DNA of 64,000 nt, taken from contig CALGZC010000004.1 of assembly GCA_937934745.1 (NCBI GenBank), forward strand, positions 1 to 64,000, in the 5' to 3' direction. Position 1 is the stretch's first letter; the number at the start of each line of letters is the position of its first letter. The position numbers and the translations under genes were made by a program. Of the stretch, positions 59,866 to 64,000 are shown in pieces. The notes beneath the pieces are model-generated. The model had not been told where the DNA came from, did not search any database, and saw nothing but the letters and a program-made list of their open reading frames with translations. The DNA comes from an uncultured Blastocatellia bacterium (GTDB taxonomy: Bacteria > Acidobacteriota > Blastocatellia > Chloracidobacteriales > Chloracidobacteriaceae).

Positions 59866-60576
59866 TTAGGCATGCATGCTCTGTGCGCTCGGTTCCATCC
59901 CGAGCGCCCGATTGAGCAGGGTTTCAAACTCCCCATACGCTGCTAAGTAATCCTCACGGCTCAATTGGATGACACGGTGGGCTTCCACAGCATCATAGAC
60001 GTGCGTGATTTCCGTGTGGCGGTCGGTTGCGCCGGGGATTTCCTTGTAGGTCAGAAAGTAATGCCGCAGGCGCTCGATCAGGTTTTTCGGGCATTCACTA
60101 ATATCACGCCACTCGCCGTACACCTCGTCCCCGCGCAAAACGGCGATGATTTTGTCGTCGGCCTCATTGCTGTCAACCATCCGTAAACCGCCAATCGGAA
60201 TCGCCTGCACGAGAATGTCGCTGTGGTGAATCGGCTTTTCGGTGAGCACGCAAATATCCAGCGGGTCGCCGTCGCCGGCCATGGCCGTCCGTCCGGTTCG
60301 CTCAGCACAGAAGGCACCTACGCGCGAGCCACAGTAGGTTTGCGGGATGAGTCCATACAGCGTTGGGCAGTGGTTGGAATACTTCTGCGGTCGGTCAACT
60401 TTCAAGTGGCCCGTCGTCTTATCAAGCTCATACTTGACGGCATCGGTCGGCACAATTTCGATGTAGGCCGTGACCTGCATCGGGGATTGAGCGCCGATTG
60501 AAACACCGTGCCACGGATGCGCCTTGAACAAGGTGCGCATCATCTTCCACAGGGCAGCTTCGAGGGTTTGATCCAT
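59866..60576 (-). CDS. ppa: inorganic pyrophosphatase, family I
   Basis: 236 residues. Hydrolyses pyrophosphate to drive biosynthesis. The metal-binding signature is GDGDPLDICVLTE; also IEIVPTDAVKYELDKTTGHL with the usual catalytic Lys/Glu, YGLIPQTYCG, and DDKIIAVLRGDEVYGEW. It is about 50 residues longer than the E. coli enzyme at both ends and resembles the longer bacterial versions seen in chlamydiae and others. Single gene. Confidence -1.
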   Translation of the reverse strand: MDQTLEAALWKMMRTLFKAHPWHGVSIGAQSPMQVTAYIEIVPTDAVKYELDKTTGHLKVDRPQKYSNHCPTLYGLIPQTYCGSRVGAFCAERTGRTAMAGDGDPLDICVLTEKPIHHSDILVQAIPIGGLRMVDSNEADDKIIAVLRGDEVYGEWRDISECPKNLIERLRHYFLTYKEIPGATDRHTEITHVYDAVEAHRVIQLSREDYLAAYGEFETLLNRALGMEPSAQSMHA

Positions 60577-60689: not shown

Positions 60690-61961
60690 TCATTCTGCAT
60701 TTTGACTTTGTTGCTTTTCGTACGCTTTCAGAACTTCGGCATAAATGACCTGCAACGGCTTCCCCGTTGCTTCTGCCAGTGCGCAGCAGTCATCGTATTC
60801 AGGCATGACTTTTTCCAGTCCGTTGGGTAGCGTGGCGGACTTGAGGCGCACCACACCGGCGGCAGTCGTCAGGTGGACTTCACGCCGTGGGAGTGTGTAA
60901 CGGTCGGACATACGTCGCCGCAGACCGAGCGTTGTTGTCTCCTGAAAGATCGCCGCCACCAAGCGCGCTTCGTCTGCGGGGCGGCAGAGAACGGTGAGCG
61001 CGACGGCCGGACGATTCTTTTTCATCTGAATTGGCGTAAAAAAGACATCGAGTGCGCCCTCCGCCAGCAACCGCGCCATAACGTAGCCCAACTGCTGTGG
61101 GGATTGATCATCAAGATTGGCTTCCAAAACGGCAATGGTTTCACACGTGGGCACCGCGCCGGCGACTGCGGGATGCTGTTGGGTGGTGACGTTCGGAGCA
61201 GGGCCAAGAAACACCCGGAGCGCATTAGGAAAGCCGGGGATGTCGCGGTCTCCGGCCCCATACCCGGTGTGCGTCACCGTGAAGTCCGGTGTTCGCGTGT
61301 AGGCCGCACAGAGGGTCGTGAGAATGGCTGCACCGGTAGGCGTTGTGAATTCACCCTCCAGGTCGCCGGCGTAAAATGGTACGCCGCGGAGTAACTCGGC
61401 CGTACCGGGGGCAGGAATCGGATAGCGTCCGTGGGCGCAGGCGATCAGGCCAAAACCGACCCGCAGAGGCGACGCAGTCAGGCGCGCAACACCCAGTTGT
61501 TCAAGGCACAGGCACGCACCGACAATGTCCACGATGGCATCCACGGCCCCAACCTCATGAAAATGCACAGCTTCAGGGGGAAGCCCATGGACATGGCCTT
61601 CGACTTCCGCCAGTCGCCGGAAGATGGCGATGGACTGCGTTGTGACACGCTCGCTCAGTCCGGCCGCCGTAATGATGGCCGTAATCTCGGCTAGCCCACG
61701 CCCGTGCGCAGTCTTGGGTTCGTGCGAGTGGTGATGGTGGGACGCAGGGGCTTTGAGCACGACATCAAACTTGGCACAGTCAATCGCCGCCCGCTTGACG
61801 CGCCGCAGTTGCAGCTCATACCCGTCAAGCCGGAGTTTGGCTAGGTCGGTACAGAGCCTGTCAAAAGATCCGCCGGCGTCCAGGAGCGCGCCGATGATCA
61901 TGTCCCCACTCACACCTGCAAAGGCATCAAAATGCAGGTGAAACACGCGTCCGGTTTGCAT
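60690..61961 (-). CDS. larC: nickel-pincer cofactor cyclometallase LarC
   Basis: 423 residues. LarC inserts nickel into the pyridinium dithiocarboxylate cofactor used by lactate racemase and related enzymes. FDAFAGVSGDMIIGALLDAG at the N-terminus, a His-rich stretch SHHHHSHEP typical of this metal-handling family, HFHEVGAVDAIVDIVG, EGEFTTPTGAAI, and LEANLDDQSPQQLGYVMARLL in the C-terminal half. It is one continuous gene, not the ribosomal-frameshift larC1/larC2 form. larB, larE and larA are not in this window. ATG 61961 has AGGA upstream; 88 more open codons precede it. Confidence -1.
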   Translation of the reverse strand: MQTGRVFHLHFDAFAGVSGDMIIGALLDAGGSFDRLCTDLAKLRLDGYELQLRRVKRAAIDCAKFDVVLKAPASHHHHSHEPKTAHGRGLAEITAIITAAGLSERVTTQSIAIFRRLAEVEGHVHGLPPEAVHFHEVGAVDAIVDIVGACLCLEQLGVARLTASPLRVGFGLIACAHGRYPIPAPGTAELLRGVPFYAGDLEGEFTTPTGAAILTTLCAAYTRTPDFTVTHTGYGAGDRDIPGFPNALRVFLGPAPNVTTQQHPAVAGAVPTCETIAVLEANLDDQSPQQLGYVMARLLAEGALDVFFTPIQMKKNRPAVALTVLCRPADEARLVAAIFQETTTLGLRRRMSDRYTLPRREVHLTTAAGVVRLKSATLPNGLEKVMPEYDDCCALAEATGKPLQVIYAEVLKAYEKQQSQNAE

Positions 61962-62303: not shown

Positions 62304-62380
62304 TGGTGCACCCGACAGGATTCGAACCTATGACCTTCTGATTCGTAGTCAGACGCTCTATCCAACTGAGCTACGGGTGC
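62304..62380 (-). tRNA. tRNA-Arg (anticodon ACG)
   Basis: Acceptor GCACCCG/CGGGTGC, anticodon stem TCTGA/TCAGA with loop CTACGAA, T-arm ATAGGTTCGAATCCTGT with one weak pair, CCA encoded at 62306-62304. It follows tRNA-Leu by five bases, so the two are cotranscribed. Confidence -1.
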
Positions 62381-62385
62381 TTGGG

Positions 62386-62472
62386 TGGTGCGGATGAAAG
62401 GACTTGAACCTTCAAGGGCCGAAGCCCACATGGTCCTGAGCCATGCGCGTCTGCCAATTCCGCCACATCCGC
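62386..62472 (-). tRNA. tRNA-Leu (anticodon CAG)
   Basis: 87-base class II tRNA: acceptor GCGGATG with its 3' partner CATCCGC, anticodon stem CATGG/CCATG with loop CTCAGGA, long variable arm GGGCTTCGGCCC, T-arm AGGTTCAAGTCCT, CCA encoded. Confidence -1.
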
Positions 62473-62575: not shown

Positions 62576-63238
62576 CTAAAAGTCTAAGCGTGGCAACCGT
62601 CCTGTCGTAGATTTGAGGGTTTCCTGCCGTCCGCGTTCAACTTCGAGCATGAAGGTTTGCAACTTAATGCGGTCTTTGCGGCCCGGAGCCGACTCGACGC
62701 CTTCGCGTACGTTGACGGCGTAGGGTTTCACCGTCCGAATTGCCGTTGCCACGTTTTCACTCGTCAGTCCCCCGGACAGGATAATCCGCGCATACTGTCT
62801 TGCGGCTGCCGCCAATCGCCAGTCAAAAAGTCGTCCTGCTTGTCCATCGGGTGACTCACCTTCCAGAACCACCGCCGCCACAGGATAAGTTTTGACCCGC
62901 ATCACATCGAAGTCGTCGCCGACGCGCAACTTCTTGACCAAGCGCCAAGCGCCAAGTTGACGGCAGTAGTCGGCGCTTTCATTGCCATCGAGCTGAATGA
63001 CGGACACCTTCGCCGCTTCGACCATCGAACGTAGCGCTTCAAAGTTATACTCGTTGTGGAAAACGCCGATAACCGGGACAAACGGTGGCAGGCGGTCGGC
63101 AATCTCACGCACAGTCGCGGGTGCAACGTGGTATTCGCTCCGTGGGTTGAGGTCAAACGCCAGTGCATCGGCTCCGGCATCCAGAGCAAGCGCTGCGTCA
63201 TGGTAGTTCATAATCCCGCTGACTTGGGTTTTGACCAT
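62576..63238 (-). CDS. trpF: phosphoribosylanthranilate isomerase homologue with altered catalytic residues
   Basis: 220 residues, a TIM barrel aligning end to end with TrpF: ALDAGADALAFDLNPRSEYHVAP, PPFVPVIGVFHNE, VIQLDGNESADYCRQL, ARIILSGGLTSENV and PYAVNVREGVESAPGRKD. TrpF isomerises PRA in tryptophan synthesis using Cys7 as base and Asp126 as acid (Thermotoga numbering). Here the N-terminal KICGI motif reads KTQVSGI with Ser7, the LLD motif reads VLEG with Glu126, and the QLHG and GG(S/T)G elements read QLDG and GQAG. The barrel is intact, so it may be a TrpF with changed chemistry or another isomerase. No other trp gene is adjacent. Confidence -1.
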   Translation of the reverse strand: MVKTQVSGIMNYHDAALALDAGADALAFDLNPRSEYHVAPATVREIADRLPPFVPVIGVFHNEYNFEALRSMVEAAKVSVIQLDGNESADYCRQLGAWRLVKKLRVGDDFDVMRVKTYPVAAVVLEGESPDGQAGRLFDWRLAAAARQYARIILSGGLTSENVATAIRTVKPYAVNVREGVESAPGRKDRIKLQTFMLEVERGRQETLKSTTGRLPRLDF

Positions 63239-63500
63239 CGCTGCCTCCCGGGTAAAGCGGCCTCAACGCGCCGTCCAAAAACCGTTTTCGGGAAAACGTT
63301 TTTTTCGGAGTATGAACGCCACTGATTATCACCGAGACCATATCTGGCGACAAGCTGTGGCGCAGAACTCACCGTCGCCTCAGCCTATCAGGTCAGTTGC
63401 GCCCTGCTGTCAACTTGCGCCACCATCGGTGGCGGCGCTTCGCTGTGTGGCGCACCTGCACAACCTACTCTGAACCGAAAAAACACCTGTCAAAACACCT
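63239..63500. other. divergent intergenic region trpF-murA
   Basis: 262 bases with no gene. It ends in a 12-bp imperfect duplication (AAAACACCTGTC at 63480-63491 and AAAACACCTATG at 63492-63503) whose second copy includes the murA start codon. Confidence -1.
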
Positions 63501-64000
63501 ATGCCAACTCGGTATGACATTGTAGGCGGACGTCCCTTACACGGTAGGCTGCGGGTCTCCGGGGCAAAAAATGCCGCCCTTAAGATGATCGTAGCGGCGC
63601 TCATCGCCGATGGTGTGACCACACTGTACAACGTCCCACGCATTACCGATGTCGAAATTACGCTCAAGCTGTGTGCGGAACTGGGTGCCGACTATGTCTG
63701 GCGGGATGAGACAACGGTTGCCATTGATGCCCGTAGGGTGAGTAATCCGGTCATTCCGCTCAAGTACAGTGGCTCGACCCGAACGCCGATTCTGTTTGTG
63801 TCGCCGTTGCTCCACCGGTTAGGGAGGGCAGAGTTGACAACAATTGGCGGTTGCTCAATCGGCCCCCGGCCGATCAACTACCACATTGCCGGACTCCAGC
63901 AGTTGGGTGTCACGGTAGAAGCACTCTCGCGGACGGCCTATCGGTTTCACGCCGATCACCTCCAGGGCAACGTCATTACGCTGGAATATCCCAGTGTTGG
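63501..64000 (+). CDS. murA: UDP-N-acetylglucosamine 1-carboxyvinyltransferase, 5' part
   Basis: First 166 codons; the gene runs off the right edge. MurA adds enolpyruvate to UDP-GlcNAc, the first step of peptidoglycan synthesis. GGRPLHGRLRVSGAKNAALKM carries the Lys-Asn pair that contacts the sugar; GGCSIGPRPINYHIAGLQQLGV matches the usual GGC.IG.RPVDLH.. element. The segment usually reading MRAS has STRTPILFV, and the motif KMIVAALIADG is less common, so it is a divergent member; the loop Cys lies around residue 115 in E. coli and would correspond to the GGC motif here. The ATG at 63501 is well placed by homology. Confidence -1.
   Translation, partial: MPTRYDIVGGRPLHGRLRVSGAKNAALKMIVAALIADGVTTLYNVPRITDVEITLKLCAELGADYVWRDETTVAIDARRVSNPVIPLKYSGSTRTPILFVSPLLHRLGRAELTTIGGCSIGPRPINYHIAGLQQLGVTVEALSRTAYRFHADHLQGNVITLEYPSV

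Follow-up and report, generated by a model that had tools for sequence, protein, structure and literature searches.

A TrpF-fold protein of a Chloracidobacteriaceae bacterium with both catalytic residues substituted

A 64,000-nucleotide stretch of DNA from an uncultured Blastocatellia bacterium (assembly GCA_937934745.1, contig CALGZC010000004.1), here called the window, encodes a protein that resembles phosphoribosylanthranilate (PRA) isomerase, TrpF, and departs from it at both the catalytic base and the catalytic acid. Is it an unusual TrpF, a gene in decay, or a barrel that has acquired another role? An earlier note, made from the sequence alone, had aligned the protein with this enzyme over its whole length. 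The profile searches agree: PF00697 matches the entire protein at 97.2 bits (cut-off 22.7), and its best solved relative is Thermotoga maritima TrpF (TmTrpF; 1lbm, E=1.3e-36, residues 1-197). It scores below every NCBIfam TrpF equivalog cut-off, at best 154.1 against 215 bits. The protein's own genome belongs to Chloracidobacterium, and orthologues at 88% occur in records NKPT01000030.1 and CALCKX010000012.1. A structure model, built from an input alignment of 3 near-identical sequences, has a pLDDT of 52 and is unusable.

The earlier note had also seen no other trp gene nearby, and this holds: the closest genes are those of two tRNAs, which are the only Rfam matches, a LarC-like protein, an inorganic pyrophosphatase and MurA (Table 1). 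The murA gene adjoins the orthologue in all seven Chloracidobacterium genomes and in no other genus. Among the genomes whose flanks were examined, the LarC and pyrophosphatase genes lie near it in its own genome and in genome G006 only, and not in G001. A conserved operon partner was sought in the flanks and none was found outside the genus, the flanks having nothing in common with those in genomes G007, G008 and G009 of the same family; gene context thus names no substrate.

Table 1. Positions in the window of the TrpF-like gene, its neighbours and its altered active-site codons.
Feature	Position	Strand	Remarks
TrpF-derived paralogue ORF	62576-63238	minus	220 aa + stop, ATG start; PF00697 (beta-alpha)8 barrel
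Shine-Dalgarno-like GGGAGG	63244-63249	minus	5 nt 5' of ATG; read from sequence
murA, start of gene	63501-63998	plus	divergent neighbour of the TrpF-like gene
tRNA genes Arg-ACG and Leu-CAG	62304-62472	minus	directly 3' of the TrpF-like gene, same strand
LarC-like nickel insertion protein	60690-61937		adjoins inorganic pyrophosphatase
inorganic pyrophosphatase	59866-60576		adjoins LarC-like gene
codon 5 = Gln	63224-63226	minus	Lys5 in TmTrpF; Lys in 36/36 class TrpFs
codon 7 = Ser, AGC	63218-63220	minus	catalytic base Cys7 in TmTrpF
codon 36 = Tyr	63131-63133	minus	substrate-carboxylate Arg36 in TmTrpF (role: PMC2667513)
codon 84 = Asp	62987-62989	minus	His83 of TmTrpF, QLHG motif
codon 103 = new Lys	62930-62932	minus	Ala103 of TmTrpF, inside barrel per PMC2667513
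codon 126 = Glu, GAA	62861-62863	minus	catalytic acid Asp126 in TmTrpF
codon 176 = Asn	62711-62713	minus	invariant Asp178 of TmTrpF; then V-R-E-G, not V-S-S-G

Residues are numbered as in TmTrpF unless a codon number is given. The catalytic residues of TrpF are Cys7 and Asp126 (PMC2667513), the latter being the protonated acid (PMC9088769). Arg36 pairs with the carboxylate of the substrate's anthranilate, His83 is a ligand-site residue and residue 103 is counted among those in the barrel's interior (PMC2667513); in a simulation, Arg36 acts chiefly as an electrostatic shield and not by direct contact (PMC9088769). Relative to TmTrpF, the window protein carries K5Q, C7S, R36Y, H83D, A103K, D126E, D178N and SS180-181RE, and has lost the GGSG loop. 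Lys5 and Asp178, which we take to be ligand-site residues of TrpF, are invariant in 36 TrpFs of the class.

The substitutions of Cys7 and Asp126 and the alteration of the neighbouring elements (QLHG to QLDG, GGSG/GGTG to (D)GQAG), all reported in the earlier note, are confirmed. Its statement that phosphate binding is kept stands for one half of the site: GG158-159 and the SGGL motif are retained, as are K102 and E184, but SSG of loop 8 has become REG (RES in G008). The same note called the changes paired and conservative-looking, which understates them, as nearly every class-invariant ligand-contacting residue is replaced, with R36Y, H83D and A103K among the non-conservative exchanges; it had missed K5Q, R36Y, A103K, D178N and SS180-181RE. 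Counting as invariant a position conserved in at least 93% of the 36 class TrpFs, there are 51 such positions, and the derived copy is altered at 19 of them, including all six of 5, 7, 36, 83, 126 and 178. The chance that 19 random changes among 51 hit all six is about 0.0015, for a set that was picked knowing the roles of its members.

Two technical explanations were rejected. Misalignment at positions 7 and 126 is ruled out: the first 60 or so residues of TmTrpF and the window protein align without gaps, and an alignment with a canonical-to-derived series (L010-L015) is gapless near position 7, its sole gap being a two-residue loop deletion some residues past 126, so that sequence alignment places both positions correctly. 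Chance or assembly error is ruled out by identical residues in eight genomes, namely each of the seven Chloracidobacterium genomes searched, of which three are assembled in two contigs, and one of a related genus (G008). Ser7 and Glu126 are present in all eight derived sequences. The other replacement residues are common to all eight too, with N178 in seven; in G008, positions 178 and 182 are both Ser.

The earlier note had proposed a search for a second, canonical trpF, and the same genome indeed holds one (C73:160-768), with K5, C7, R36, H83, D126 and D178 all in place; TrpC and TrpA are encoded elsewhere in it. Both TrpF copies occur in seven of seven Chloracidobacterium genomes searched, and also in G007 and G009. 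The match of Chloracidobacterium TrpC (G000:C24:38842-39513 and G001:C1:1070661-1071320) to the IGPS profile does not begin until position 27-29, whereas that of the TrpC of G007 and G009 begins at position 1; the N-terminus of the Chloracidobacterium protein looks divergent or shortened. C. thermophilum reportedly requires branched-chain amino acids, lysine and B12, a list in which tryptophan does not figure (PMC4376005). In G010, a relative from the same order, matches to TrpF, TrpC and TrpA are all missing from a 97% complete assembly, which makes it probably a tryptophan auxotroph.

It could be argued that the window protein is a variant PRA isomerase that uses Ser7 and Glu126, perhaps under altered regulation and redundant with the second copy. 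The overall fold matches, Glu is a conservative replacement for Asp and could serve as the acid, and Ser might be a weak base, so that some residual PRA isomerase activity may persist. We regard this as quite improbable: the class-invariant R36, H83, K5 and D178 are replaced too, and every Chloracidobacterium genome searched has a complete canonical TrpF. In G008 the window-type copy is the sole TrpF seen, trpA being present and neither a canonical TrpF nor trpC found; this argument is weak and the missing second trpF no evidence, since the assembly is 90% complete, lies in 1,090 contigs and lacks trpC as well. From the sequence we infer that the derived copy no longer isomerises PRA: other residues stand in place of the base, the acid, the carboxylate-binding Arg, His83 and Asp178, and the genome has a true TrpF besides.

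Where did it come from? In the tree, the window copy belongs to a ten-row clade of its family (support 100/99), placed inside the vertically inherited TrpFs of the class together with those of a sister family of the same order. A long branch leads to the family's second TrpF, which makes up a clade apart (100/99); we call the line of the window copy the A-lineage and the second line the B-lineage. Homologues with Ser7 and Glu126 make up one monophyletic clade that shares the changes. By tree and gene order, the window copy is a descendant of the class's own vertical TrpF. Besides this descent and the retained residues given above, it has in common with TrpF (PF00697; TmTrpF 1lbm/1nsj) the whole-length homology, the barrel core and the PGxKD end motif; it differs in that its gene is solitary, its catalytic set is replaced and a canonical TrpF stands elsewhere in the genome. 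A C-terminal extension was considered as a novelty and rejected, as canonical TrpFs of the sister family have it too.

In the sister family, the A-lineage gene sits in a trpC-F-B-A operon, between trpC and trpB-trpA (L117-L119). In G007 and G009, a trpE-G-D-C-F-B-A operon holds the B-lineage gene, and the A copy is located elsewhere. Taken together, the two arrangements indicate that the A copy lost its place in the operon. The A copies of G007 and G009 (L011 and L012), from two genera, are sister sequences of the derived form at 62% identity and are likewise solitary. They already show D126E, R36S and A103T, and their loop is shorter and has no GGTG; K5, C7, H83 and D178 are still in place. 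The full set of changes is found in Chloracidobacterium and one further genus, that of G008. Searches across the class (162 genomes) and the phylum (396 genomes) returned no close relatives beyond this known set; the next-best matches were canonical TrpFs of the sister family, at no more than 57% identity.

A third TrpF-like family of Blastocatellia (L064-L075) also matches PF00697, and in some genomes its members stand beside one or two further TrpFs, as do L073 in G007 and L072 in G009. Its motifs are K-I-C-C-I-S-S, LLDSGN and KELGGTG. In contrast to the window copy, it has Cys7, Asp126 and the GGTG loop, with no QLHG, and a very long branch (3.4) separates the two.

We think it rather probable that the window copy is what has become of the lineage's ancestral trp-operon TrpF, displaced, made redundant and then changed in function. 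The second TrpF lineage would have taken its place in the operon; the ancestral gene, redundant from then on, would have changed in function. Its catalytic and substrate-binding residues were replaced step by step. As a normal second TrpF covers the standard job, the old copy is most likely now in a new role.

Selection on the derived copy is strong. Within the genus, its dN is 0.03-0.07 and its dN/dS about 0.02-0.07 (two near-identical genomes left out), synonymous sites being near saturation, so that dN/dS is rough and dN the safer figure; in these genomes, dN of the true TrpF is 0.13-0.33 (near-identical pair left out). Between the window's genome and G006, the derived copy is 92% identical, against 92% for MurA, 90% for the pyrophosphatase, 74% for LarC and 65% for the true TrpF, and by these figures the derived gene is under the same degree of constraint as an enzyme essential for the cell wall. 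It is under strong purifying selection and not decaying. A partial second derived TrpF (L046; G003:C383:86350-86640), covering residues 121-218 at 68% identity, is present in one metagenome-assembled genome and is either a decaying duplicate or contamination.

A relic in decay after its replacement by the second TrpF would also have left the trp operon and lost its catalytic residues, and the fragment in G003 could be counted in its favour. This reading is hardly credible and was rejected, given the low dN/dS and the MurA-level identity; the reading frame is intact in eight genomes, behind a good ribosome-binding site. The low dN and dN/dS, the second canonical trpF and the monophyletic clade lend strong support to the view of the earlier note that the protein is altered and has not decayed. 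The altered substrate or mechanism that the note suggested is plausible, and a loss of catalysis, leaving a pseudoenzyme, is a version of this idea to be taken just as seriously.

What, then, might the altered barrel do? Half of the phosphate site (GG158-159) is accompanied by a new polar pocket that is fixed (Q5, S7, Y36, D83, K103, E126, N178, R180 and E181), and judged from these residues its ligand would most likely be another phosphorylated or anionic metabolite. We give about even chances to an enzyme whose specificity is new and whose candidate acid and base are E126 and the newly gained K103. A plausible but less favoured option is a pseudoenzyme that has lost catalysis, its barrel serving as a ligand-binding or scaffold subunit which could, for example, modulate the true TrpF or TrpC or sense a phosphorylated metabolite. 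Every known catalytic residue of TrpF is replaced and purifying selection persists nonetheless; outside the pocket, 100 of 165 positions are invariant in the derived copy against 59 of 164 in the true TrpF, as expected of a protein-interaction surface; and lid loop 6, which bears the acid in TrpF, is variable. On the other hand, the new pocket residues, such as Lys103, Glu126 and Asp83, are polar or charged and fixed, not drifting, and the gene has no linked partner. Pocket positions are invariant in 25 of 31 cases, against the 100 of 165 elsewhere (p=0.04), a slight excess for a pocket set of our own choosing. That the pocket is just slightly more conserved than the rest, and loop 6 variable, weakens the case for an enzyme, towards which we still lean slightly.

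A takeover of another phosphoribosyl isomerase step, for instance that of HisA, is very unlikely and was set aside. PriA and HisA are of the same superfamily, and TrpF/HisA functional shifts have followed gene loss or gain (PMC13055916, PMC5404923). It speaks for such a step that the barrels of HisA and TrpF can be interconverted in function (PMC7591586, PMC9088769). Against it, ProFAR is too large for the pocket of TrpF (PMC9088769), and the derived copy has no loop insertion. PriA and HisA have an Asp/Asp catalytic pair and longer loops, whereas the window copy is TrpF-derived, and its genome has two genes with strong His_biosynth (PF00977) matches, the number to be expected if they encode HisA and HisF.

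The FMO protein is a marker of chlorosome-based phototrophy. Among the genomes of the bacterial family, its protein family, PF02327, occurs in the eight with the derived state and in no others; G007 and G009 both lack it. The co-occurrence of the rebuilt TrpF with FMO involves a single branch and is for this reason a lead, not a test. It was on the branch towards the family's FMO-bearing chlorophototrophs that the protein took its final form, and a role tied to this lifestyle is our guess. Only tentatively do we propose the whole course of events, in which a displaced trp-operon TrpF, through an E126/C7 half-way stage seen in two FMO-less genera, would have become a (beta-alpha)8 enzyme under strong constraint, with K103, E126 and D83 in its pocket and a function specific to chlorophototrophic acidobacteria.

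TrpF and HisA barrels are the textbook system for changes of enzyme function, and most of their known shifts remain within PRA/ProFAR isomerisation. Here, a TrpF has seemingly been taken out of that chemistry. In the literature searched, no paper that mentions Chloracidobacterium also mentions trpF, and we found no description of this paralogue. The ancestral state in the sister family, the half-way state in two genera and the end state in eight genomes are all extant and can be expressed. As the end product is conserved to the same degree as MurA, it probably has an important role in this unusual group of phototrophs.
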